Source: Loxodes magnus (taxonomy: Eukaryota > Ciliophora > Karyorelictea > Loxodida > Loxodidae). From it: a stretch of 64,000 nucleotides of DNA. Location: the NCBI GenBank assembly GCA_946699065.1, contig CAMPDV010001520.1, positions 57,409-121,408 on the forward strand, in the 5' to 3' direction. The position numbers and the translations under genes are program-made. Below, piece by piece: positions 2,176-62,371 of the stretch (positions within the stretch are counted from its first letter, which is position 1; each line of letters starts with the position of its first letter). The notes beneath the pieces were generated by a model. It searched no databases and was not told the DNA's origin. It saw only the letters and a list, made by a program, of their open reading frames with translations.

Positions 2176-3052
2176 GTATATGAAATCAGACTCCTTCATC
2201 ACTACAATAATGAAATTCTTACAATCTTTATTCACATTAACAAAAAAACTCACCCCCTTATTTCACAAGCCATACACTCTATAACATTATCTTTAAACTC
2301 ATTTGTACCAACTTATATAAATTAAAACTTAAAAACTTACCATCTTTTTAATTAAACTGTAAAAAACAACATACATACTAATATTTACTCCAATTATTAC
2401 ATTCTAAAATAAATATCTAATTCTTAAATACCTTTTTCTAATATTTATTAAATATATTACTTTTCGAAACTTTATAAATATATGTGTCAAATTGTATATT
2501 ACCATCTGATTAGTAAATACTTACTTTCTATGCAGTTAAGAAATATTAAATACTTACCTAAGTTAAGAATATTAAATGTTTACCTAAGTTAAGAATATTA
2601 AAATGCTTACAATCTATAAGTTAAGAATTTTAAAATACTTACATCCTATAAGTTAAGAATATTAAAATACTTACCTCCTATAAGTTAAGAATATTAAAAT
2701 GCTTACCAACTATAAGTTAAGAATATTAAAATAACTTACCAGCTATAAGTTAAGAATATTAAAATATTTACATTCTATAAGTTAAGAATATTAAATGCTT
2801 ACCAGCTATAAGTTAAGAATATTAAAATGCTTACTCTCTATAAGTTAAGAAATATTAAAATACTTACTATCTATAAGTTAAGAATATTAAAATACTTACA
2901 TCCTATAAGTTAAGAATATTAAATTGCTTACTTCCTATAAGTTAAGAATATTAAATACTTACCTATTTTAAAAATATAAAAGTTTAGAAATGTAACGTAC
3001 CTCCTTTAATTAGATTATTTACCATCTACATATATTATTTTGAAAAATTAAC
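2176..3052 (-). other. Chain of mini-introns and 3-nt micro-exons at the 3' end of gene A
   Basis: On the minus strand, after the last base of the main exon (3053), the sequence is a run of GT...AG segments separated by exactly 3 bases. The first intron is 3026-3052 (27 nt), followed by the triplet ATG (3023-3025), an intron GTAAAT...TTAAAG, the triplet GAG, a longer intron, then the 32-bp array described separately. The chain continues past the array with triplets ATG, AAT (2401-2403), ATG (2341-2343), TTG (2309-2311) and AGT (2276-2278), each preceded by AG and followed by GT. Copies B and D keep ATG, TTG and AGT at the same places. One stretch (about 2420-2480) fits less neatly. Splicing is inferred, not shown. 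Confidence 0.55.
2515..2965 (-). repeat. Tandem array of 28-32 bp intron-like units, copy A
   Basis: Fourteen units. Read on the minus strand each begins GTAAG (or GTAAA), has an A/T-rich middle, a branch-point-like TTCTTAAC, and ends TTATAG or TTAG. Twelve units are followed by a 3-base spacer and two abut the next unit directly. In transcript order the spacers start GAA, GAT, ATA, AGA, CTG, AAT; they go on CTG, TTG, GAG, GAT, ATT, then (after two spacer-less units) AAA. The unit body is nearly invariant while the spacer is nearly free to vary. Confidence 0.85.
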
Positions 3053-4286
3053 TCCATCTCATTTATAACTATTCCCCATCCATTATATTTAAAGATTGTA
3101 TTGTCTAGTTATATCCTAACTTATTGCCATTCTTATAGATAGCCAATGACCAGTAGTATAACTTAGTTTATTTTTCTATCATGTTCTTTAACTTTTCGAT
3201 AGTAGTGTCTTGCTTAACCACAAGCTTCACAGATTTATTATTCGGAGATACTATCGATATTTAGATTTCTTTATTCGTGACCTTTTTCGATTTAGATTAG
3301 GAAGTTTACTATGGCTTAACTTTTTATAACTCCTAAGGAGTAACCGACTTCATGATATTCTACTACTTAACCTCAGATAATTATTATTAACACTAATGAT
3401 ACTATGTCACAAGTACCTATTTCTCATTCAACAGATCCTAAACCTATTTCTCAATACTCATCTTCTACCTCTATAGATTCTATAACTACTATCCCATCTA
3501 CACAATCTTTCTGTCATTATCACCACTAAACTAATTAAGTTTCCTCAAAGCATCCTTAGTAACAGCCAACTCATTTACTATTTACGCTCTCTCCTATTAA
3601 ATACTCGAAACTTGCTAATTCAACTACTAAATCTAAGTAAGATAACTACCGTTAACCTGACTTAATGTATCCATTTAGACTTTCATTCTATCTCTCTCCT
3701 CAAACACATTAACCGATACCTAGGAGATCTATTAAAAGATTTCTTAAGCTTCCTTAACTAACTTTGATACCAACTACTCCACTCTAGGATGAATACTACT
3801 TTCTTAGGTGGCTTATTAAACATTACCTTATTTACTGATCTATAGCTACTAATACTTGAGATATCCTAACTATTAACTTAACTATCTAGCCAACTATTTT
3901 AACTCTCTCTATTTAACCAAACTATTCTTGAAAACATATTGGTTGGAATTATTTATTAACTATTAGAGAAAGCTAGTCTGTTACTCAGACAACATTGTAT
4001 ATGCTGAACGGATTTTAGTCTAATAAGCTTAAAATAAAGTAATGGTACTTTGTATCCCCTTTTACTCTAAACGTTTTAACAACTGAATATCCTCTGGTAA
4101 TTAAGAAGGACGTAACTTATGGATCAATTAGCAAGATTAGTCGAAACATTTGATACTTAAGTTTCTCTAGAAATACCCATTGACACAAGTATAGCAAATA
4201 TTATGCTAACATGGAAGGACCATAGGGACTTTCCTCTATCCATCGAAATCTCCATTACAAGATTGACATTTAACAACCTAGGACAT
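3053..4286 (-). CDS. RING / coiled-coil / ubiquitin-like protein, copy A (main exon)
   Basis: From ATG at 4286 the minus strand is open for 411 codons with no TGA (TAA and TAG read as Gln). Residues about 7-52 form a C3HC4-type RING: KCQSC, then PCQHNICYTC, then KCFDQSC, with all eight ligands present. This family usually acts as a ubiquitin E3 ligase. Residues about 65-330 are Gln/Glu/Lys/Leu-rich with coiled-coil character. The end (from about 3260 down) reads ISIVSPNNKSVKLVVKQDTT and then a segment with a YKNGNKLG turn and DGEQLQMRW, matching a ubiquitin-like fold. The ATG sits just before the first Cys pair. The exon ends in phase 1 at a GT, and the micro-exon chain follows. It is the most intact of the four copies. 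Whether it is a functional ligase is inferred from domains only. Confidence 0.75.
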
Positions 4287-10204: not shown

Positions 10205-10965
10205 TACGATAAAACTAAAGGTAGGTATTTAATATTTAGATAAAATATTCCAAGAACATACGGTCCTGTATTATCTGTAACGATATCTAGTAACTATAAT
10301 TGAATCGTATCGGGAAGTAGAGATAATACGATAAAGATATGGGACTTAACAACTGGCTAGTGTAAGAGTACTTTATAGGGACATACGAATCCTTTATTAT
10401 CTGTAGCGATTTCAAGGGACCAAAAAAGGAATCGTACCGGGAAGTTCTGAAGGTACGATAATGATATGGAACTTAGCAACTGGTTAGTTAAAAAATTCTT
10501 TGTAAGGACACACGAATGGTGTAAATTCTTTAGCGATATCAAGTGATTGGAATTGAATTTTATTGGGAAGTTATGATAAATCAATAAATAAATGGGACTA
10601 GCTAACGTAAGGGTTCCTTGTGGGGATATACAGATTCTGTGTTTTCTGTAGCGATTTCAAGTGACCAGAACTGATCATATCAGGAATTATTGATAAGACA
10701 ATCAATATATGGGGATCCACAATTAGTCAGCTACTTCGAACTCTTCAAGGTCATTCAAATAATGTATCAAGTATTCAATGCATAATGCTTCAAGTGTTTC
10801 AATTTCTGGATCATGTAGATATGGAACTTTTATATAGGTGAATGTATATAAACTCTTTAAGGCTAAAAAATGATCTAAATTCTATAGCATTGGGTAAGAA
10901 TAACAAATAAATAGTATCAGGAGGATATGATAATACTGTGAGAAAGTGGAAAATAATAAGTTGAG
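10205..10965 (+). pseudogene. WD40-repeat protein fragment
   Basis: Four to five WD40 repeats on the + strand, each with a GH-like start, SVAISSD and an IVSGS...TIKIWDLTTG-type end (clear at 10275-10380 and 10380-10500). WD40 repeats form beta-propeller scaffolds. The reading frame changes at least once (between repeats 1 and 2, and again in repeat 4), so the copy is either decayed or holds undetected mini-introns. In three repeats (codons at 10301, 10554 and 10672) TGA occupies the same position, just before I-V/L-S-G. No convincing start codon or partner domain was found; the fragment ends near 10965. Confidence 0.6.
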
Positions 10966-13479
10966 AGAAAGTAATAACTATTAAGACTTTTAATTTTACA
11001 ATTTAAGAAGTTTATTATTACTTTTAGGTAAAGCATACTATGTATTTAATTACGTATAAAAGCTTTAGATTATATAAACCAATTAAAAATTAAGATATTT
11101 ACGCATGGTAAAAAACAAAAAGACTTAAGAAACAACATGAGAATAGAAGTTTGACATTTTTAAACATAAACTTAAATAAAGTGATACTTCTGAATTAAAT
11201 CAGAAGCTTCATTTAATAGGAATTTGATTAAAGTGAATTAATGATAAATTTGATAGTTTTAAGTTTATTAGATGATTATTAAAGATTTATCTCTTAACCA
11301 ATCTGCTTTAAAACTAGATTTGGTATGAAATATAAGGTTATTTTATTATTTGTTATGATTTAATTAAATATCTTGTACTTATTTTAAATAAATATAAAAC
11401 ATTTATTCTTCTTTATATAGAATACTAATTTAAGATCTTTTATTTTATTTTTTAACTAATTTATTATTAACCTCTTTAACTATTCGTTAAGTTAAACTAA
11501 TTATTTCAATTTTTTAATTTTATAACTTCTAAAATTACTTAATTAATATCTTAAAATAAAGATTTATTTTTTATAATACGACAAAATTAAATTTCTAAGA
11601 ATAAAGAATCAACAAAATTAAAAAAAATAGACATAAGATGTTAGATTAAGATTTATAACTTTTATTAATTTCTGAGTTTTTATAATTTATGCTATTATAA
11701 TAAAGTTTAAACTATTTTTATATTTAATTTTTATTAATTTATTAAAAATAGCTTTTTTATATTTGTTTTCTTATCATTATTTTTTATTATATATAATTAA
11801 AGCATTTATAAAGATATTTTTATTTATACATTTTTTTAATTTCTCTTTTTATTATAATCTTTTAATGCTTTTGTTTTACTCTAAGTATGAAAATTAATTC
11901 TTTAATCATTAAGCCTCCAATATTATTTAGTATGTCTTTTAATCAGTTTAAACAATACAATTTAGTCTTTTTATTTTTTCTTTTATTTTGCTATATTTAC
12001 AGCTACTTCATTCTGTAGTTTTTTCCTCAGATTTCCTTTTTTTGTTCTTAACTTGCGTTATTATGCTGTAAAATGACTTGTTTTAATGTAAAATTAACAT
12101 TTATTATTTTTTTTTAAAGATCGTTTTAATAATGACATTATTTAATCTTAGAGAGTTCCCCGCTGTATTTCCAAGATTTTGAAGAAAGTTTTTTTTTAAT
12201 TATCTGGCTTTATAATGGTTAGAAGTTTATGATTTTCGAATTTATATTCATTACTCAATGTATTATCTGTTTGCAAAAACTGATTGGAAGAATATCTGTT
12301 ATAACTATTTAAAATTTCATTAAGGAAAAGAAACATGATGAGAACTACTTTTCACAAGCATTAAAAGTTAATACTTCATTGATTAAAAAAATTCACAAGC
12401 ATCTTTTGGTAAATAAAGCATTTATAATAATTAAAATTTTTAAGCATTCTTTTAATTTTAAATTTTAAATTTTAAATTAAGTAACTTTTATTATGCTATG
12501 AAATTAAATCTATACAGAATTAGTTACAATTTAAAAAATCAACGTTATTTCAAATTTTGTCTTATAGATAAAAAAATAACCTTTTTTAGTAAAATTATAG
12601 AATAATTATTTTAAAATTAACATTTAAAATTGTATTACTTTAAAAATTATTCAGATTATCTTTGTCTTAATTATAAATTTTAGAGTTAGTATTATCGCGC
12701 ACTAAGTATAAATTTAAAATTATTTAAAATTAACGATTTAAATTTTTTAATAAGTACATATTAAATTATTATATTAGGATTTGAATTAATGAATATCAAA
12801 ATAAATAATTTTCATATCTTCAATTAAAAATTAAATTATTTTCTCAAATTAAAAAAATTAAACTTTTTAAGCTTTATTAGTTGATCAGCAAACATTCAAA
12901 AGATCTAACTTGAAAGATTTTAATTTTTTTACTATTTAATATATTATTTTCTCTTATCTCTTTTTTAATAATTTATAATTAATTTATTTTATGATGAAAA
13001 ATAAATTTTTAATCATAATTTGCTATTTAGCAATTCTGAATTCATAAATATACATTAAAAAAATTAAATATTTTCTAATTGTCTTTTTATTAAATTTATC
13101 ATTCTTACCTATAATAAATATCAAAAATAGTTAAGTCAATAAATTCTTATATTAAAAAAGTAAAAATTGTATAAAATAAATCTAGTCTATAAATATTTTT
13201 ATTTTAAATTTAGAGAGATGTAATTAAAAATTTATGTAGAATAAAAATGATTAACATTATTAAACTATATCTAAATATATTTATTCTTTTTAATATATAT
13301 TTCCTTAAAAATTTTTCCATCCTTAAAATTTCCTGAAATTAAAAAAAAGAAGTTTTAAAAATATTTTTCAATTACTAACTTCTCTAATACTTTTTATCTA
13401 AAAATTTTATACTTCTAACGATTTTATCTTAAAAAAAAATTGTAAGCCTTAGCATTAAAATTTTAAAAATTTTTATTCC

Positions 13480-14520
13480 GTCCGAAGAATCTCTTGTAGT
13501 GTAAAACGCTGAGCAAAAAAACAAAAATAAATTTTCACGCTTTTTGACTGTAAAAACATTTTTTACTTTTTAAATATTTATTTTCAAAATTAATCTTAAA
13601 AAATTTTTAAATTCTTGAAACCAAAAATATGCTTTGTTCTTAAAAAAAAATTAACTCCAAACTAAAACGAAAAAAAATTTTCCGAATATTTTTTGAAATT
13701 AAAAAATCTTAAAATTTTTTTTTCTTATTGCAGTTCTAAAAAAAAATTTAATTTAAAAAATTTTTTTAATCCAACTTTTTATTCCCAATATTAATATAAA
13801 CTTTTCACTAATTCCGTTTCTCCTTTTAAAATTTATCCATTCTCCTTCATATCCTTTACTTAAAAAACCTCACTCTTTAATAATTTAATCAACACTCCCA
13901 TCCCTTATCCCTTTTTACACTTTTTTAGTTCCATTTCAAATTTTTTTGTCCTAACTTTCACACTTTTGTTCCGACGCCACTTTTCCCTATAGTGCAAAAC
14001 GCTGAGCAAAAAAACAAATATTTTATTTTCGAGTTTTTTATAACTCTTTTAAACCCTTTTCTACTTTTTCAATTCTTATTTTAAGAATTGTCTTAAAAAA
14101 ATTATATGTTCTTAAATTCAAATAATATTCTTAAATTAAAAATATACTATTTAATTAAAAAATTCTTTCTTTTCCTCAATTATCTAAAATACAAAATTCT
14201 CAAACTAATTTTGTCTTATTCACAAACTCAAAATACTTTTTTTCATTTAGAAATATTTTTTACTCTCCTCTCTTAAATTAAAAAAAATATATAAACTCTC
14301 AACTAATTCCATTTCTCCCTTTTAACTAATCCATTCTTAATCTTATTAAAACTTAAACTTAAAAAACCTCACTCTTTAATACAATTCTATCAACATTACC
14401 ATCCTTTTTACCCTTTTATTAGTTCCATTTCAAATTTTTATTCAGACTTTCACACTTTTGTTCCAACAGAAAATATTTTTTTAGTGCAAAACAATGAACA
14501 ATCAAATATTTTATTTTCAT
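13480..14520. repeat. Module of about 490 bp repeated in copy B
   Basis: The block AGTGTAAAACGCTGAGCAAA occurs near 13498, a close variant (AGTGCAAAACGCTGAGC) near 13992, and a degenerate version near 14482. Between them, 13800-13980 and 14290-14465 are parallel: both hold CTAATTCC(G/A)TTTCTCC, AAAAACCTCACTCTTTAAT and TAGTTCCATTTCAAATTTTT in the same order. Copies A (near 465) and D (near 61280) have the block once. B therefore has two extra, diverged modules. Confidence 0.75.
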
Positions 14521-15059: not shown

Positions 15060-15948
15060 TTGTTCACTCTCATAGTTTGTTTCCAGACTCATCTCTCACT
15101 ACAATAATGAAGTTCATACAACCTAAATTCACATTAACAAACTCACCCCCTTATTTCACAAAACATACACTCTATTACATTATCTTTAAACCATTTGTAC
15201 CAACTTATATTAATTAAAACTTACCATCTATTTAATTAAACAGTAAAAAAACAACCTTACATACTAATATTTACTCCTATTATTACATTCTAAAATAAAA
15301 TATCTAAACCTAAAATACCTTTTTCTAATAATGATTAAAATATATATTACTATCCGAAACTTATAAACATATGTGTCAAATCGTATATTACCACCTAATC
15401 AGTAAATACTTACTTTCTATTTAGTTAAGAATATTAAAATAACTTACCTAAGTTAAGAATATTAAAATACCTTACATCCTGTAAGTTAAGAATATTAAAA
15501 TACTTACATCCTATAAGTTAAGAATATTAAAATAACTTACCTAAGTTAAGAATATTAAAATAACTTACCTAAGTTAAGAATATTAAAATAACTTACTTCC
15601 TATAAGTTAAGAATATTAAAATAACTTACTTCCTATAAGTTAAGAATATTAAAATAACTTACCTAAGTTAAGAATATTAAAATAACTTACCTAAGTTAAG
15701 AATATTAAAATAACTTACCTAAGTTAAGAATATTAAAATAACTTACCTAAGTTAAGAATATTAAAATAACTTACCTAAGTTAAGAATATTAAAATAACTT
15801 ACCTAAGTTAAGAATATTAAAATAACTTACATACTATAAGTTAATAATATTAAAATAACTTACCTAAGTTAAAAATAAAAGCTTAGAAATGTAACATACA
15901 TCCTTTAATTAGATTATTTACTATCTACATATATTATAAAAAATTAAC
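15060..15948 (-). other. Mini-intron / micro-exon chain at the 3' end of gene B
   Basis: Same layout as in copy A. The first intron is 15925-15948 (24 nt), then the triplet ATA (15922-15924), GTAAATAATC...TTAAAG, the triplet GAT, a longer intron, and the tandem array. After the array come triplets GTG, AAT, ATG, TTG and AGT, each between AG and GT, matching copies A and D in order. The chain fades into non-coding sequence near 15060. Use as introns is inferred from splice-site, branch-point and phase logic. Confidence 0.5.
15408..15862 (-). repeat. Tandem array of 28-32 bp intron-like units, copy B
   Basis: Fifteen units, of which nine are of the spacer-less 28-bp type (GTAAGT...TTAACTTAG joined directly to the next GTAAGT). 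Only six have a 3-base spacer; in transcript order TAT, GAA, GAA, GAT, GAT, AAA. A run of six identical spacer-less units suggests recent local amplification. The array is otherwise like that of copies A and D. Confidence 0.85.
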
Positions 15949-17728
15949 TCCATCTCATTTATAACTATTCTCCATCCGTTATATTATAAAATTGCATTGT
16001 CTAGTAGTCTCCTAACTTATTGCCATTCTTATAGATAGCCAATGACCATTCGTATAACTTAGTTTATTCTTCTATCATGTTCTTTAGTTATCCGATAGTA
16101 GTGTCTTGCTTAACCTCAAGCTTCACATATTTATTATTCGGAGATACTATCGATATTATGGTTTCATATTTCATTATCCTTGCTCGTAACTCATTCAACT
16201 AACTCGTTAACTATTTCCTTTCCTCCAATAAAATTTTTATCTAGTTCTCCAAATTAGATCTCTCCTATCGCAAACTCTCTATCTACTAACTAAACTCACG
16301 ATTCTATAAAATATTATTATTATTAGCCTTAGTAACCACATTCAAATCACTCTCTATCTAACTATTTTACTCACTCAATCTATTGATTTAAACCCTTAAA
16401 TGATCATTGTCCTCTCTCTAAAGATCAAACTCATTCTACAACTCTCTTATCCTTTACTCTTTCTATAAATCTTGCTTTTCATACTATTACTATTAAGATA
16501 TATTCCTCTAATCCTTCTCTTAAACAACCTACAACAAATCACTTATTCGCAATTTATATTAAACACACTCACTCGATAAACTTTTTATTTACTCACTCAA
16601 ACTCTTAGACTATTCCTCTAACTTATCTTTATATCCTTATAACTCGAAACTTTTTTACTATAAGATAACATTCTACTACTAGATCAAACTCTTTATTTAT
16701 AATTATTGATCCTCTATTACTTTCTAGTTACGAGATATTTATTCCCTCTAGTCAGTCAACATCATATCCTTATCTCTTATTACCTAAAGCAACTTTTAGA
16801 TTTATTCTTCACTTTTCTAATTGACATTCTCCTATGATTTAGCCTACAACTATAACTCCTTTCATAAATGCTATATAGTTCTCTAAAAAGATTATTTCTA
16901 TTCTCTAACTCGCAACTCCTATAGCGGCTGAATCTCCTTTATCATTTTCTCAAAGACTTAAACTTGCATATTCTTTAAACTAAGAATAGCCTTATACTAA
17001 GAATATTTTTACTCATCCTTTATTCACTTCTCTTACAACTATACCTCCAATCTCTCTATATCCACCTTCTTTATCTCACATTACTATATAGTAACCTATT
17101 ACATTAACCCGATACTCTTTAGTCTTTCAAAAAGATTATTTTAACCCATTTCCTACCTACACTATTCACCTTAGTCCTATACTCTTATCATCACCTCCTC
17201 ACATGCTTACTCTAAACTTCTCTTGATTTTATCATAGATCTACATTATCTTATCTCTATTTATCGCATAATCATCAGCCAACTACTTTTATCATTGACCC
17301 AAAACAGAAGAATATTGCTTCAACCTCTCCTTTATAGCACTCAAAGTCATTTCCATACGAACTTACATAGTAGGAACGATCTCCTCTTATCTAACACATT
17401 GATGATTCTTATGAGAATTCTATTAACATTTTTCACATATTAATGCACTGTCACTCAGACAATACAATGATAGAATCTCATTATGCTACTAACATATACT
17501 AAGTAAGTTTTATTTGGACTCCTCTTAAAGATGTAAATCTAGTATTTCCAATTCTTCAATTGGTCTATCAGTGATAATGTTGTGATTGTTGCATATGAAC
17601 TTCTTTTATATTTTGTAGAAACTCTTCAAACATTTTTCACAGATGATACATCCACAATCACATCTTCTAGGCTTTTTTAGCTTTTAGTTGAACTCTTCTT
17701 CACAAGCTTCACATTAAGATGCTTGCAT
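15949..17728 (-). CDS. RING / B-box-like / coiled-coil / ubiquitin-like protein, copy B (main exon)
   Basis: ATG at 17728 opens a minus-strand frame of 593 codons that runs without frameshift to the same phase-1 splice point as copy A. The N-terminus has CEAC and RCDCGCIICEKC, a RING-like cysteine cluster. About 60 residues on comes CQQHNEILSLYC, then ICEKCQQNSHKNH, which fits a B-box zinc site, so the order is TRIM-like. A long Gln/Glu/Lys coiled coil fills residues about 150-520. The last 70 residues are a ubiquitin-like domain (VKLEVKQDTTIGQLKNMIEE, then YKNGNKLGDYQTMQFYNITD). Three in-frame TGA codons lie in the coiled coil. If TGA means Trp the frame is intact; if stop, the copy is broken. 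TRIM-type proteins are usually ubiquitin ligases. A UBL at the C-terminus of such a protein is unusual. Confidence 0.7.
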
Positions 17729-27505: not shown

Positions 27506-27577
27506 GGGCTGTTCCGGGAATTGAACCCGGGACCTCTCGCACCCTAAGCGAGAATCATACCACTAGACCAAACAACC
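27506..27577 (-). tRNA. tRNA-Pro(AGG)
   Basis: On the minus strand a full 72-nt cloverleaf: acceptor GGTTGTT pairs with AACAGCC, D-arm GGTCTAGTGGTATGATT, anticodon stem TCTCGC/GCGAGA with loop TTAGGGT (anticodon AGG), and T-arm CCCGGGTTCAATTCCCGG. The sequence closely follows eukaryotic tRNA-Pro. A short T run follows the 3' end on the minus strand. CCA is not encoded, as expected. Confidence 0.95.
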
Positions 27578-30064: not shown

Positions 30065-30137
30065 AAACACCTAAGGGACTTCAACCCTTTACCACCAGCT
30101 TAAAAGGCTGGCGCTCTACCGACTGAGCTGGCTTATT
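30065..30137 (-). tRNA. tRNA-Lys(TTT)-like, degenerate
   Basis: On the minus strand the D-arm GCTCAGTCGGTAGAGC and anticodon arm CCAGC-CTTTTAA-GCTGG (anticodon TTT) are well formed. The T-loop reads TTGAAGT, so the near-invariant C56 is G. The acceptor arms AATAAGC and AGGTGTT have three mispairs out of seven. It is therefore likely a tRNA pseudogene, or a gene whose 5' end has been replaced. Confidence 0.6.
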
Positions 30138-30193: not shown

Positions 30194-30266
30194 TGGAGAA
30201 CACGGGTATCGATCCCGTTGCCTCTCGCATGCAAAGCGAGCGGTCTTGCATTTGAGCTAGTTCCCC
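30194..30266 (-). tRNA. tRNA-Ala(TGC)
   Basis: On the minus strand the acceptor GGGGAAC pairs with GTTCTCC (one G-T wobble), with discriminator A. The anticodon arm is CTCGC-TTTGCAT-GCGAG (anticodon TGC) and the T-arm ACGGG-ATCGATA-CCCGT is typical of eukaryotic tRNA-Ala. The D-arm is slightly irregular (G19 is C, and the distal D-stem strand is GACC rather than GAGC). The gene lies 56 bp from the tRNA-Lys-like sequence, in the same orientation. Confidence 0.85.
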
Positions 30267-43047: not shown

Positions 43048-44067
43048 ATGTAAACTAATTAAGCTTAAATTTAAGGATTGTGCTGCTATTGTAGGAGTAA
43101 GACTGTATATGAAGCTTAGGTTTTGATATGTAAGCATGGGTATTGTAAGGACTGTTTCTTGGAGGTTTATGTAAAGAGTAGGTAGAGTTAGCAGAAACTC
43201 TAGGAGTTGGACTTTTTGTGTCAGGTTTGTGAGTAAAAATCAGAAATTACTGACACAGAGTTGATAAGTATACTCCTAGCCAGAGCTAAAATACCATTCT
43301 AAGGGAATAGTGAATTTGTATCTACCTAAGGAGCTGAGTATAGATAAGCACCTATGATCTGCTAGCAATGCTAGAGAAAGGATTAGGAAATTGAATTCGT
43401 AGAGACTAAGTTAGACAAGCAGACTTAGGATTACTAGGAGCTTTATAACCAGGACTAGTAGTATATGGATTTAATAGAGCAGATGAATGAAAAAAAGAAG
43501 AACTAGCAAAACTACTAGCACGAGTAGGAGAAGCTAATAGAGTGATATGTAAGTTTAATTTAGCCTTGGTATATAGAAGTAAGACCACTAAAGCTATAAA
43601 AATAACTATTAAAGCTTAATGCAAGAATATGCTTAATTCAGGAGCAGCAAGTCTAATATAAGGAGAAGAACTAAAGACTATAAAAAGAGTTAGATGAAAC
43701 TGACTAAAAAATTCTGGAGAGCAATTAGATGCTCATAAACTATTAGCATGATAGTGCTCTAAAATCCTAAGAGCTTAAATCCTTTATTTAATAACTATAA
43801 GCAGAGTTAAATAAAAAGAAAGGGCTGATTATAGAATAAGAGAACTAAATAAACCAGGTTAAAGAGGATAAAACCAAAGTGTTAATATCTGACTAGCAGT
43901 TTTAAGATTTGTAGTAGGAGAGTTAAAGCCTCATTGCTGAGATTTTGAAACTTAAGAATGAAAAAGAAAAATAATTGAAGCAACTTGAGTGTGTAAATCA
44001 AGGCTTGAAATTAAAAGGTCTTAAGTATGCATTCCTAATATTAAAGAAAATAAGATTGAAAAAATGA
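43048..44067 (+). CDS. RING-type zinc finger / coiled-coil protein
   Basis: ATG at 43048 starts MQTNQAQIQGLCCYCRSK. Cysteines and His follow in the order C-x2-C, then CKHGYCKDC, then CQVCE, the spacing of a RING finger (residues about 12-68). The rest is Gln/Glu/Lys/Leu-rich with coiled-coil character to TGA at 44065. A single in-frame TGA lies at 43543 (codon 166). It could be Trp, a premature stop giving a 165-residue protein, or next to an unspliced 15-nt intron (GTAAGTTTAATTTAG, 43549-43563), whose removal keeps the frame. RING proteins are usually ubiquitin ligases. The architecture resembles the repeat-borne genes but no UBL domain is present. Confidence 0.65.
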
Positions 44068-45549: not shown

Positions 45550-48173
45550 CATTCTGAAACTCTTAGGTCTTCATTATTGTTTTGATTTGATTTTTTTTAG
45601 TTTATCTTCTCTTCTTCTTGTATCTTCGTGCATTCTAAAAATAATTATTTTAAGTCTTCTTTATTCAAATATTACTAATGGATTTATTTTTCCCTCAATC
45701 ATTCTTAAAATCAAGTTATTTGTTAATGCTTTTGTTTTATGCTAGACCATGTTTTTTTAATCTTAAGATCAATATCTTCTAGGATTTATTTATTCTTTTT
45801 TGTTTCTTAATTTATTAATATTTGATTATATTCTATCATTTCTTTTAAATTTTTCTCTATTTTTTATTAGTTTCATTGTTTATTGTATATTTATTATTTC
45901 CTCTTTTCAGATTTATGTTTATGTGTAAGTTTTATAATGTTTCTTGTATCTGAAGACTGTTTTCTTATATAATTTATCTGTAATACTAGCAATCAAAGAC
46001 GTGTTCAAATTTTTCTTATTGCTAACAAATGCATAGTATCTACTCTTAATCAATATGTATTTCTGAGAGATCAGCTCTAAAAAATATTAATTGCGTTCTT
46101 AGTCTATAAATTAATTTTTATTCTTTTATTAATTCTTTGTTTGTTGTTATATAAGTAATTTTTTAAAATTTAGTCTCATTTTTATATTGTCTATAAATTA
46201 TTTCGGCTGTTTTCATATCTTATATTCTCTATATTGTTTCCTTGAAAATTTTTTTTATATTTTTTTTTTAGATTTCTTTAGTATAATTGTTTATGTTAAG
46301 ATCTTTTATTTATTCATTGCTTATTTCATAGTATTTTTCAATTTTTTTAATACTTTTTTTTATATTTTGAGTTTTATTTTTAACTCTGTTTGAAAAGTTA
46401 TTAGAATTTTGTATCTTATCTACTTTTTTCTTTTTCTTGATAATTTCTGAATTAATCTTATAACTTTTTGTAGAATTTTAAAAATCTTTATGCTGTTGAA
46501 TCTTCAAATTTACATCAGTTGAAATCTATATACTATATTTCTTTAAATGATGCTTGTGGAATTTTCAAGTATTTTCTTAGGATTTATCTTTGTGCTATTT
46601 AGATTTTATTTTTTCATTTTGTTATTCCTAATTGAATACTATATAGGATTAATTCCGAGCAGTATTCTAATTTTGGCATTATAAATAATTTGAATAAGTT
46701 TTTAAAGTTAATTGGCTATGTTTTGCTATAGTTTTTAAAGAATTAGGATTAGAATATAAACATCGATTATTAAAATTTCTTGAAGAGGTACTCAATCTGA
46801 ACCTTTTCTTCATTAAGTTAGTTTATTTGATATTCTAGGTATTAAATTTGTTATTTCTATTAAATTTTTTTTCCTAATAGAAAAAGTTCAATCTCTTTGT
46901 TCGTTGTGTTTCTATTCTTGAGTATTTATATAAATTCGCATTTCTCCGTGTTAATATTAAGTCTTATTAATTTAAAAATGTTTTCAGTTTCGTTTAGTAA
47001 AATTTACATATTTTTTTGATTATTTGATATTAGTATTAAATCATCTGGTCAAGCAAGTTTAGCATGATAAATTTTTTGAATTTTATGCCCTAGTTTTTCA
47101 TATTTTTCTAAATGCCTTAATACTATATCATAGTATATTATTGCTAATATTGGTCCACTTGAGCTGCCTTGTAAGACTCCATTTACTTACCGAATTTTTC
47201 TAGTTATTTCTTCATCAAGATAGAAGTTAATTTATACTTTTTAATATATGTCTTTTATTATATTAATTATATTTTACGAAATGTTTAATCTTTTCATCTG
47301 GTCAAATAAAAATCTGCGATTTATTGTGTCGAACATTTTTTCTACATCAATTAACGTGATTAATAAGTCTTAATTACAATTTTCTTTTTTCTTTTTATTT
47401 TTATAGTTTTCTATGATTTGTTTTAATTATCATATATTATTAGCAGTTTGCATCTTTTTTATAAATCCTTTTTAATCTTTGTTTAATATATCTTAAGCTT
47501 ATATTTCTTAGTATAATTGGTTAGTTACTAATTTATCAAATATTTTTTAAATTACGTTTATGAGTGCTATCGGTCTATAATTTTTTCAATTTTATTTGTT
47601 TCCTTTTTTGTGAAGCATTATTACTTTAACTTTGCTCATATTTTTAGGTAGTTTTTATTGCTTCTAACAATTTTAGAAAAATTTACATAGTATTTATCAT
47701 AGTTCGTGTGATGCGTTTTTTATTAGTTCATTTGATATTGAATCAAATCCTTGAGTCTTATTGTTAGGTAAAAATCTTATTACATCTCATACTTACTAGT
47801 ATAGAATATTTTCTCATTTATTTTTAATCTTTCTTTAATATTAGTTCCATAGATTTTGTAAATTTCTTTATTAATTTAGTTATTTTAGTTTAGAGAAAGA
47901 TTTTATTATTTATTATATACATTTTTCTCCCAATTTTGAATGAAGTCTTCTTATTACATTTTCGTCAGGTTAATTTTTGTTCCTTTTTTTGGGTTTAAAA
48001 TATTTTTGGGTTAATTGGGCATTTCTTGATTATTAGCATTTAGGAATATTGATTAATAATTAGTATTTTGCTGTTGTTGTTCTTTTTACATTTTGGTGTA
48101 CTAGTTTTTTTCTTTTAAATATATCTTTTTGAGTTTTAATATGTAATCGTTATTTCTATTATATTAATTTATT
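45550..48173 (-). mobile_element. Non-LTR retrotransposon (LINE) with reverse transcriptase
   Basis: On the minus strand the RT domain spans about 47950-46900. In order: NKTQGFDSISNELIKN, KVIMLHKKGNKQN, NYRPIALINVIQKIFDKLVT, LLITLIDVEKMFDTINRR, QVNGVLQGSSSGPILAIIYY, the catalytic box LA-TGA-PDDLILIS, and LNINTEKCEF. These are the standard fingers and palm blocks of LINE RTs, with the two catalytic aspartates kept. About 350 codons run without frameshift but with six TGA codons, mostly at Trp-compatible places. Upstream ORF1 and an endonuclease were not recognised, and the downstream part (45550-46900) is Lys/Asn-rich and unresolved. The 5' side abuts a truncated RING-gene copy at 48174. Lineage within LINEs is undetermined. 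Confidence 0.75.
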
Positions 48174-51149: not shown

Positions 51150-52110
51150 AAAATCAATATCTAATTAACCAAATAGCTAAATTAGCCAAATTAACCAAAT
51201 TGACCAAATTAACCGAATTAACTGAATTGACAAAATTATACGAATTAACCGAATTAACCGATTTAACCGAATTAAATAAAGCAACTAAATTAACCAAAAT
51301 GAACAAATTAACCGAATTAACCAAATTAACCAAATTAATCGAACTAACCAAATTAATTGAATTCACTAAGTGACCAAAAATAAACAAATTAGCCGAATTG
51401 AACGAATTAGCCAAATTAACCAAATTAACCAAATTAACCAAATTGAGTAAATTAACAAAAATAAACAAATTAACCGAATTAACCAAATTAACCTAAATAA
51501 ACAAATTAGCCAAATTAACCAAATCAACTGAATTTTACGAATTAACCAAATTAACAAAATAAACCGAATTAACTGAATTAACCAAATCAACCAAATTTTA
51601 CGAATTAACCAAATTAACCAAATTAACCGAATTAACTGAATTAACAAAATTAACCAAATAAACCGAATTAACTGAATTAACCAAATTAACCAAATTTTAC
51701 GAATTAACCAAATTAACTAAATTAACCAAATTAACCAAATTTTACGAATTAACCAAATTAACCAAATTAACCGATTTTACGAATTAACCAAATTAACCAA
51801 ATAAACCGAATTAACTGAATTAACCAAATTAACCAAATTAACCGAACTAACCAAATTAATTGAATTCACTAAAGTGACCAAAATAAACAAATTAGCCGAA
51901 TTGAACGAATTAGCCAAATTAACCAAATTAACCAAATTAACCAAATTGAGTAAATTAACAAAAATAAACAAATTAACCGAATTAACCAAATTAACCTAAA
52001 TAAACAAATTAGCCAAATTAACCAAATCAACTGAATTTACTGAATTAACCAAATTGACCAAATTAACCGAATTAACCAAATTAAACGAATTAACTAAATA
52101 AAAAAATGAT
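51150..52110. repeat. Satellite of AATTAACCA-type 9-bp units with higher-order duplication
   Basis: About 100 copies of a 9-bp unit (AATTAACCA, AATTAACCG, AATTAACTG and variants). A block of more than 150 bp with distinctive variants (containing GAATTCACTAA and TAAACAAATTAGCCGAATTG) occurs at about 51340-51510 and again at about 51845-52030, a higher-order repeat of roughly 506 bp. On the minus strand the unit encodes Leu-Val-Asn repeats; I take this as a by-product, not a gene. Confidence 0.85.
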
Positions 52111-58712: not shown

Positions 58713-61700
58713 AAGATAAATCTCTGAATTAATCTTATTTAAATTATATTTAATATGAAATATAAGGTTATTTTATTATTTCTTATGATTTAATTAAATA
58801 TCTTGTACTTACTTTAAATAATATAAAACATTTATTCTTCTTTATATAGAATACTTATTTAAGATCTTTTATTTTATTCTTAAACAAATTTATTACTAAC
58901 CTCTTTAATTATTCGTTAAGTTAAAAAATTATTCCCCTTTTTTAATTTATAAATTCTAAAATTACTTAATGAATATTTTTTAAGAAATAAAATTTTATTT
59001 TTTATTTTTTTAAATACGACAAAATAAAATTTCTAAGAATTAAGAATCAACAAAATTGAAAAATTTGGCATAAAATGTTAGATTAAGATTTATTACTTTA
59101 TTTTATTTCTGAGTTTTTATAATTTATGATATTATATCAAAGTTATAGCTTTTTTATATTCAATTTTTATTAATTTATTAAAATAACCTTTTTTATATTT
59201 GTTTTCTTATCATTATTTTTATTTATCTTTCTTAATTTTTTGTTGTATATAATTAAAGCTTTTAAAAGATGTTTTTATTTATAATTGTTCATTTATTTCT
59301 CTTTTTATTATAATATTTTATTTTTATGCTTTTGTTTTACTTTAATATATTATGAGAGTCAATTCTTTAATGATTAAGCCTCCAATATTATTAATTATGT
59401 GTTTTAATCAGTTTAAATAATACAATTTCATCTTTTTATTTTTTTTATTTTGTTATATTTAATGCTATCTCATTCTGTAGTTTTACCTCAAACTTTCTTT
59501 TTTTGTTCTTAGCTAATATATTTATCTTATAAAAATGACTTATTCTGATGTAAAATTAACATATATTATTATTTTATAAAGATTAGTTTTAATAATGACA
59601 TTAATTAATTTTATTTAATAAGAATAATTAATTTTAAGTCTACACTTACAAATATAAATATTTCACAGGATTCTAAATTCAAAAATCTTTTAATTGTTGA
59701 AAACGGAGAAAACTTACAAGGAAGAAGTAAAAGGTGAGAAGTAAATAAGATTTATTAATAAATGATTAATTTAAGGTGTAATAAGAAAATGAAGTAACTA
59801 AAATTTTAAATTGTGATAATATCTCTAATCTTGGAGAGTTACCCGGTGTATTCCAAGATTTTGAAGAAAGTTTGTTTGAAAATGATCTGACTTTATAAGG
59901 GTAAGAAGTTTATGATTTTCGAATTTATATTCATTACTCAATGTATTCTCTGTTTGCAAAAACTGATTAGCAGTAAATCTGTTATAAACTATTTAAAATT
60001 TCATTAAGAAAAAGAAACATGATGAGAACTACTTTTCACAAACATTAAAAGTTAATACTTCATTGACTAAAAAAATTTACAAGCATCTTTTGACAAATAA
60101 AAAAAAAAATTCATAGCTATTAAGCAAACTACATTATTTTTAATTTAATTTAATTTAATCTTTTGGCAAATAAAGCATTTATAATAATAAACATTTTCAA
60201 AAACTTTTTAGTTAAAAAATGTAAATTTAAAATTACTAATTAACTTTTATTATGCTATGAGATTAAATCTACACAGAATAAGTTCAAACTTAAAAAATTA
60301 ACTTTATTTAAAATTTTATCTTATAAATAAAAAAAGTAATCTTTTTAGTAAAATTATAGAATAATTATTTTAAAATTAACATTTAAATTGTATGACTTGA
60401 AAAAATTATTCAGATTATCTTTGTATTAATTAGAAATTTAGAGCTAGTATTATCGTTCACTAAGCATAAATTTAAAATTATTTAAAACGAACGATCTAAA
60501 TTTTTTAATAAGTAGATATTAAATTATTATATTATTATTTGTTTAGAATTAATGAATATCAAAATAATAAATTTCATATCTTCAATTAAAAAATTAAATT
60601 ATTTTCTCAAATTAAAAAAATTAAACCTTTTAGTCTTTTATTAGTTGATCAACAGACATTCAAAAGATCTAACTTGTAAGATTTTAATTTCTTTATTATT
60701 TAATATATTATTTTCTCTCATCTCTTTGTTAATAATTTATAATTAATTTATTTTATGATGAAAAATAAATTTTTAATCATAATTTGTTTTTTAACATCTC
60801 TAAATTTCATAAATATACATGAAAAAATTAAATATTTTCTAATTGTCTTTTTATTAAATTTATAATCCTTACCTATAATAAATATCAAAAATAACAAAGT
60901 CAATAAATTCTTATATTAAAAAAGTAAAAATTGTATAAAATAAATCTATATTTATAAATATTTTTATTTTTTAATTTAGAGAGATATAATTAAAAAATTT
61001 ATGTAGATAAAATTATTTACTTATTAAAAATATATCTAAAAATATTTACTCTTTTTTAATATATATCTCCTTAAAAATTTTGTCCATCCTTAAAATTTCC
61101 CGAAGTGAAAATTCTGAGAAAAATAAGAAAGAAATTTTAAAAAATATTTTTTAATTACTAACTTCTCTAATACTTTTTATCTAAAAAATTTTATACTTCT
61201 AATGACTTTATCTTTATAAGAATATTTTTAAGCCTTAGCATTAAAATTTTAAAAATTTTTATTCCGTCCGAAAAATCTCTTGTAGTGTAAAACGCTTAGC
61301 AAAAAAACAAATTCTTTATTCTCATAATTTTTATACTATATAAAACCATTAATTTAAATATAAAACTATTACACATCCTTAAATTATTAAACGTAAAATC
61401 TTTAAAATAAATAATATAATAACTTTAAAAATAATAAAATTATAAAATTAAAATAATAAAATAATAATAATAAAATCAAAATTATAAAATTCTTTACTTT
61501 TACCTTCCTACCCTTATCCACGAAAAATTAACTTTTATTATCTAAAAAAAATACTTTTTACTCATTAAAAAAAATTAATACCTTTAACACTCTTTATACT
61601 CCCTATATCCTAAATTCTCTCGTCACTCTATCACTCTTATCACTCTTTATAACCAACTTTTATTAACTAACCATCCGAACACTTTCCACACACACTCTCA

Positions 61701-62371
61701 TTACATATTTTATTAAAATATTTTCATTTAAACTTATACCCAATCTTTCATATATAAATATATAAACTCATAAACTTCTAAAAATATTTACATATATAAA
61801 TATATACATATAAACATATAAACATATAAACAATATTAACATATTAACTCATAAACATATAGACATATATATACAAATATACATATATATAAATATATAT
61901 AGAAGAAGAAATCACTTTAATAAAAATATTTATGAAAACATATATATAAATATAAACATATAAACATTTATATATATAGTAATTAATTTAATTTTTTTAA
62001 TTAATAAGAGTTATTATTAAGTATATTGTTAATCACTATCACTATCAAATATCAGACTTCTTCATCACTAGAACCATGAAATTCTTACAACCTGAATTCA
62101 CATTAACAAACTCACCCCCTTATTTCACAAAACATACACTCTATAACATTATCTTTAAACTCATTTGTACCAACTTATATTAATTAAAACTTACCATCTA
62201 TTTAATTAAATCGTAAAAAGCAACCTTACATACTAATATTTACTCCAATTATTACACCCTAAAATTAATATCTAATTCTTAAATACCTCTTTCTAATATT
62301 GATTAAAATATATTACTTGAGTAAACTTATAAGCATATGTTAAATTGTATATTACCATCTGATCAGTAAAT

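Follow-up and report, generated by a model that had tools for sequence, protein, structure and literature searches.

The micro-exons of Schistosoma, ∼6–36 nt in length, occur in flatworm proteins, many of which are secreted. In the micro-exon genes (MEGs) that carry them, the coding region resides largely in tiny, frame-keeping exons, near-identical variants arise through alternative splicing, and evolution is fast, as set out in two papers on these genes (PMC4350168, PMC4015677). For ciliates, an account of the 90-bp-exon genes of Tetrahymena describes tandem exon/intron units with a fixed, frame-preserving exon length and one intron phase; it ascribes their expansion to unequal crossing over, places copies of long interspersed nuclear elements (LINEs) nearby, and attributes longer introns to the young genes (PMC6564038). 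Here, we describe a gene on the minus strand of a 64,000-nucleotide stretch of contig CAMPDV010001520.1 (the window) whose C-terminal tail, judged from sequence, is probably encoded by many tiny exons in succession, mostly of 3 nt (some of 0, 6, or 9 nt), with spliceosomal mini-introns between them. The schistosome MEGs are the nearest described system in kind and, for ciliate exon arrays, the Tetrahymena 90-bp-exon genes.

The gene (L1; 4286–2173) opens with a long exon (3023–4286; 421 codons plus 1 nt) comprising a RING-like start, a coiled-coil-like middle, and a ubiquitin-like (UBL) domain. After ..YVDG of this open frame begins a chain (3022–2202) of 27 consecutive GT..AG introns of 19–38 nt, separated by 26 internal exons, 21 of which measure 3 nt, three 0 nt, one 9 nt, and one 6 nt. 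The chain spans 821 nt with an exonic part of 78 nt; no internal tail exon exceeds 9 nt, yet exon 1 measures ∼1.26 kb. Joined as predicted, the tail would run from the end of exon 1 (GTAGATG) through the 26 internal exons to TGATGAAGG. Two paralogous genes on the same strand, L2 (17728–15070) and L3 (64000–62045), likewise possess a long exon ending in a UBL domain, followed by chains of 28 introns (15921–15099; of the 27 internal exons, 15 measure 3 nt and 10 measure 0 nt) and 25 introns (62817–62068; 3 nt in 21 of the 24 internal exons), respectively, within the same size range of 19–38 nt. The initial annotation of a GT..AG chain on the minus strand, 3′ of a RING/coiled-coil/UBL exon, is thus borne out, and the observed pattern is real and larger than stated there. 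The spacing of exactly three bases given there applies to 57 of the 77 internal exons; 14 are empty, that is, AG is directly followed by GT (3 in L1, 10 in L2, and 1 in L3), and three each measure 6 and 9 nt. Tandem arrays, as delimited by Tandem Repeats Finder, account for 41 of the 80 introns (in L1, 14 near-identical introns of 26–30 nt with variable triplets; 2528–2962), and in every copy two introns precede the array and 11 non-repetitive ones follow it.

Like the Schistosoma MEGs, the chain consists of very small frame-keeping exons; unlike them, its exons are mostly 3 nt and some 0 nt long, its introns measure 19–38 nt, and it is part of a RING-coil-UBL gene in a ciliate-like genome. 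Going by the genomic sequence, it would be an extreme variant of the micro-exon gene. With the Tetrahymena 90-bp-exon genes it shares tandem exon/intron units, a frame-preserving exon length, and LINE copies nearby, but in those genes it is the exon that repeats as the coding unit, whereas here the intron is the conserved repeat and the exon a variable triplet. Introner elements supply many near-identical introns to one genome, as here, but are dispersed between genes and not arranged head-to-tail in the tail of a single one. In the recursive splicing of Drosophila, as outlined in PMC8906543, acceptor and donor are juxtaposed (AG|GT) into zero-nucleotide exons and the intron is removed stepwise; the AG|GT borders recur here, but between tandem introns of ∼28 nt instead of within very long ones. 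Introns of comparable or smaller size are on record for ciliates, with the values taken from PMC11441545 being a mean of 19.3 bp for Loxodes and 15–16 bp for heterotrichs. A table in PMC3341644, its columns read as Ichthyophthirius and T. thermophila, lists 2.6 and 3.6 introns per gene, respectively, with the shortest annotated exon measuring 2 nt in both; by that table, a tiny exon as such is therefore not new. In open-licence papers, no description of 3-nt or single-codon exons, or of a run of 26 exons, was found.

The gene models of L1, L2, and L3 were written by hand under a ciliate-like code (TAA/TAG = Gln), and their array introns were chosen by a pattern requiring TTAACT. A free chain search without this requirement was conducted by dynamic programming on both strands of the whole window (GT[AG], 18–38 nt, AG, a gap of 0, 3, 6, or 9 nt, and again GT). 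Only three chains of at least six introns resulted, 15921–15099 (28 introns), 3022–2202 (27), and 62817–62068 (25), their ends and intron counts being identical to those of the hand-made models. In Markov-2 random 64-kb sequences (n = 20, one strand each), the longest chain comprised 4 introns. With a narrower donor definition, the window yielded chains of 17, 16, and 14 introns, the next one having 5, and the random sequences (n = 20) reached 3. All 77 internal exons are multiples of three; as the search admitted only such gaps, independent support comes from the failure of shifted ones. When the gaps were shifted by one, the best chains in the whole window had 7 and 6 introns, and when shifted by two, 8 and 6; they were located at 780–967, 33.9–34.2 kb, and 16991–17285 (the last within the L2 exon), none within the chains of L1–L3. 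Intron lengths themselves leave remainders of 1, 2, and 0 upon division by three in 20, 13, and 8 cases inside the arrays and in 13, 11, and 15 outside, while the gaps all leave 0. A chain of 5 introns at 34.0–34.2 kb, in a purine-rich, coding-like stretch, was taken as chance because it stays below 6 in the free search and the same stretch yields 6 under either gap shift.

The strongest evidence comes from the 11 non-repetitive introns after the array. The post-array tails alone gave 11 introns in each copy, whereas none of 500 random tails generated from L1 exceeded 5, and shifting the gaps by 1 or 2 nt left two at most; restricted to GTA donors, the search found 9 introns versus a random maximum of 6. 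As random and shifted controls are both exceeded, the pattern is no by-product of the tandem repeat. L1–L3 are, however, paralogues derived from one ancestor, and a single origin is thus seen three times.

The GT and AG borders were imposed by the search, but the donor spectrum, the base at acceptor position −3, and the enrichment of a branch motif were not. Donors are GTAAG in 44 of the 80 introns, GTAAA in 10, GTAAT in 9, GTATG in 7, and others in 10. All 80 acceptors are TAG, AAG, or CAG, and GAG never occurs. The TTCTTAAC-like branch points of the initial annotation hold for the array introns (CTTAACT in 40/41 and ATTAACT in the remaining one), whereas the other 39 introns differ in sequence. 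Among the latter, which represent three paralogous sets of 13 and are hence non-independent, 30 have a branch-like motif (yTnAy) close to their 3′ end, compared with a mean of 21.1 after shuffling (1 of 500 shuffles reached 30). At the sequence level, the segments therefore have the GT..AG borders and branch-like motif of spliceosomal introns. Taken together, the sequence statistics and the paralogous copies strongly support the predicted exon/intron architecture, and its interpretation as spliced is likely right in outline.

The introns of the arrays are almost constant (95.9% identity over 41 units; cross-locus means 94.3–96.6%), whereas the triplets between them (n = 30, 13 distinct) are 36.6% identical, with 38.7% expected if they were drawn independently from their own composition. 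At the second position, 29/30 triplets have A or T. No significant association between intron variant and neighboring triplet was found, albeit at low power (following triplet, p = 0.17, 30 units; preceding triplet, p = 0.38, 27 units). Downstream of the array, the copies diverge in their exons at least as much as in their introns: exonic sequence (68 nt; micro-exons together with 26 nt from the start of the last exon) differs at 16/68 (L1–L2), 14/68 (L1–L3), and 23/68 (L2–L3) positions versus 23/270, 22/269, and 20/270 in the introns (Fisher p = 0.0013, 0.0069, and 1.4e-7), these and the following p-values being indicative only because neither pairs nor sites are independent. For the micro-exons alone, the differences are 4/42, 8/42, and 9/42 (p = 0.77, 0.044, and 0.008 vs. 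introns). In the 49 nt behind the variable 26 nt, L1 and L2 differ at 3 positions; a gap-free comparison with L3 gives 25/49, and a gapped alignment places small indels in this stretch, followed by a conserved block.

Two reading phases of the tail come into question. Phase 0 requires the less usual donor GTAGAT at the end of exon 1; the L1 tail then reads EEDIRLNLLEDIKMFRKKKNYMLSGI, with the predicted end ..KNYMLSGI, no internal TGA occurs in L1–L3, and the TGA that opens the last exon (2173–2201 in L1) would serve as stop in all four tail-bearing copies, the fourth being the decayed L4 introduced below. The better-looking donor (GATG|GTAAAT in L1 and L3, GATA|GTAAAT in L2, and GATG|GTAAGT in L4) leads to phase 1, in which every 3-nt exon would be split between two codons, two of its bases completing one and the third opening the next. 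The L1 tail then reads GGRYKTESVGGYQNVSKKKELYVEWDLMKESDFIY, with the predicted end ..LYVEWDLMKESDFIY, and its stop (2175–2173) falls in the same alignment columns as that of L2, so that translation would include the variable 26-nt stretch of the last exon. Phase 2 tails are stopped by TGA inside L1, L2, and L3. Phase 1 is somewhat favored. Thus, while the architecture proposed by the initial annotation is backed by the statistics and the paralogous copies, its term “single-codon” exons may be inexact.

The predicted product of L1 is a TRIM-like, RING ubiquitin-ligase-like protein. Pfam matches at or above the cut-off were obtained for Rad60-SLD (E 6e-7) and ubiquitin (E 1e-5); the RING match (E 2e-4) was below it and no B-box matched. 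Conversely, L2 (exon 1, 15922–17728) matched the B-box (E 4e-9) and not RING, its ubiquitin-like match again reaching the cut-off; in both, the coiled coil was judged by eye. A model of the UBL domain (87 residues, 2-sequence alignment) reached a predicted local distance difference test score of 81, the best of five (52–81), and its nearest PDB folds are SUMO and ubiquitin (template modeling score ∼0.7, probability 1.00, best E 4e-3, none at 1e-3). Pfam and the predicted model thus both point to the β-grasp fold of ubiquitin-like domains. The ratio of nonsynonymous to synonymous substitution rates (dN/dS) for L1 versus L3 was 0.29 over 156 codons and 0.43 over 102 codons, two pieces of the RING-to-coil part; for L1 versus the truncated copy L5 it was 0.46 (133 codons). 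For the UBL domain it is 0.65 (L1–L2), 0.45 (L1–L3), and 0.32 (L2–L3). These values indicate past constraint on the protein part.

The copies differ in their state of preservation. In L1, all 421 codons of exon 1 form an intact frame. The 592-codon frame of L2 (15953–17728) contains three in-frame TGA and no frameshift, and exon 1 of L3 (62818–64000; from tblastn, cut by the window end) has two frame breaks plus TGATGA. L4 (52940–53648, minus strand; 70% identity by blastn over ∼430 nt) is a diverged, decayed copy with a UBL remnant and a short chain. It keeps the order 0 nt, GAA, GAT, although the intron interiors differ; GAA-GAT may thus be the ancestral short array. L5 (48178–48609, minus strand) is a truncated RING copy adjoining a decayed LINE-1-like reverse transcriptase (46683–47882, minus strand; RVT_1 E 2e-26, PDB LINE-1 ORF2 proteins E ∼2e-28) with several in-frame TGA. 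Because of these and the three in L2, TGA as a codon for Trp, an assignment that PMC11441545 reports for karyorelicts, was considered. The five covered TGA of the reverse transcriptase align to V, V, K, R, and F in the PDB alignment and not to conserved W, which makes decay the simpler explanation, although the TGA of the L2 frame may instead be read as an amino acid. Sequence downstream of the three copies is also shared (1–1213 with 60771–61952 and 1–539 with 13007–13565), indicating that a block of several kb was duplicated. Relatives were found neither in viral contigs by the array motif (0) or the conserved 3′ end (0) nor in genome contigs by the intron core (0), and none of the 7 pattern matches of an L1 protein scan of viral contigs was a relative.

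The window has ciliate-like features, namely the TAA/TAG = Gln code, which is also used by hexamitids and oxymonads, and a G+C content of 16–33% (2-kb windows); the chromosome-breakage 15-mer of Tetrahymena is absent from it, even when up to 2 mismatches are allowed. Elsewhere in the window, the minus strand carries tRNA genes for Pro (AGG; 27506–27577) and Ala (TGC; 30194–30266) and an Rfam-only tRNA match (30073–30129). A 9-nt tandem repeat (51163–52099; ∼104 copies, 74% matches) leaves the minus strand open over long stretches. On the plus strand, a coiled-coil-like open frame with one in-frame TGA and a RING-like match (E ∼0.007, below cut-off) occupies a region of higher G+C (43048–44064), and a 127-bp unit is duplicated (10302–10543) within a stretch of weak WD40/β-propeller matches (best E 2e-5, below cut-off).

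Several observations speak against a tail encoded by spliced micro-exons. The chain was read from genomic DNA, and no undoubted intron of another gene was identified within the window for comparison; Pfam scans of 18.4–22.5, 35.0–42.2, and 53.7–56.3 kb gave one weak ABC-transporter match (E 0.004) and no gene suited as an intron control. In phase 1, the L2 tail encounters two TGA and the L3 tail one, and codon usage fails to separate the phases (log-likelihood per codon for phases 0/1/2: L1, −3.814/−3.767/−3.950; L2, −3.845/−3.733/−3.704; L3, −4.099/−4.061/−4.211). Between L1 and L2, the micro-exons alone are no more variable than the introns (4/42 vs. 23/270, p = 0.77). Ten of the 27 internal gaps of L2 are empty, so that some units lack a codon. 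Of the four tail-bearing copies, L1 alone is undamaged; with three TGA in L2, a broken L3, and a decayed L4, parts of the family may be unexpressed. L4 has fewer than 6 introns under standard search settings; a 7-intron chain requires introns of up to 70 nt and GC donors and stops short of the stop codon, so that L4 supports the first borders only.

A rival reading is an intron-born minisatellite, a mini-intron repeat tolerated because most transcripts lose it through just one or a few long splicing events, with most triplets absent from the protein. In L2, a run of near-identical 28-nt units has six AG|GT borders in succession and no triplet, implying that units can amplify without codons, and the frame would be kept by any combination of donor and acceptor. 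Neutral duplication, however, predicts that the triplets resemble each other roughly to the extent that the introns do (96%), whereas 37% identity was observed, and the 11 downstream introns keep the gaps of 0, 3, 6, or 9 nt although they are not repeats; a minisatellite is therefore unlikely. It is more improbable still that the loci form a dead or silent family, a dispersed and perhaps germline-limited duplicated block, in which unexpressed genes carry the chain as a relic of an earlier spliced gene. Damage to three of the four copies, the flanking repeats that they have in common, and the decayed reverse transcriptase nearby would agree with this, but exon 1 of L1 is intact, dN/dS between L1 and L3 is below 0.5 in the RING-to-coil part, and even a relic requires that the architecture was once functional.

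Removal of the segments as DNA during macronuclear development, as internal eliminated sequences and not as RNA introns, is very improbable. The DNA is ciliate-like and may be germline, some eliminated segments of ciliates are about as short as these mini-introns, and TTAA is present in 41/41 array introns; the borders, however, are of the splice-site type with varied donors, and on inspection there is no common TA or TTAA border whose use would leave a triplet that keeps the frame. Least credible, and next to negligible, is translation of the unspliced repeat as a low-complexity C-terminus. It would be compatible with the absence of TGA from all 41 array introns and with frames of L1 that are open through the array, but the frame does not hold from one unit to the next, given introns of 26–31 nt and gaps of 0 or 3 nt, 13 of the 39 other introns contain TGA, and nothing would maintain the AG NNN GT borders.

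Should the tail be encoded by spliced micro-exons, the order of splicing would be constrained. An exon of 3 nt is covered by the footprint of the donor complex and directly abuts the acceptor upstream of it. As it cannot hold two splicing complexes, introns would have to be removed one at a time, probably from the 5′ end and by intron definition, the upstream exon being always long and the next intron always short. With every step, the upstream exon would gain, in most cases, 0 or 3 nt and a donor would be restored, as in recursive splicing, with AG|GT borders acting as zero-nucleotide ratchet points. Because all gaps are multiples of three, skipping of units, deliberate or in error, keeps the frame, and units may be freely gained, lost, or skipped. 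The tail has probably grown by tandem duplication of intron-plus-triplet units, followed by diversification of the triplets. Antiviral TRIM proteins have a variable target-binding end. It is conceivable, though doubtful, that duplication, loss, and alternative splicing edit the C-terminus of the TRIM-like ligase residue by residue, with selection favoring new residues while the mini-introns are conserved; the introns would then be the constant frame and the codons the variable cargo.

If spliced as modelled, 27 introns would leave the 821-nt chain of L1 and 78 coding bases would remain, mostly triplet by triplet, which would be extreme for runs of consecutive tiny exons. Strictly ordered splicing would be directly testable here, as neighboring introns could hardly be recognized at once. 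The locus would also be a warning that exons of this kind may escape gene finders and RNA aligners, and it would represent a case of exons evolving faster than the introns between them.
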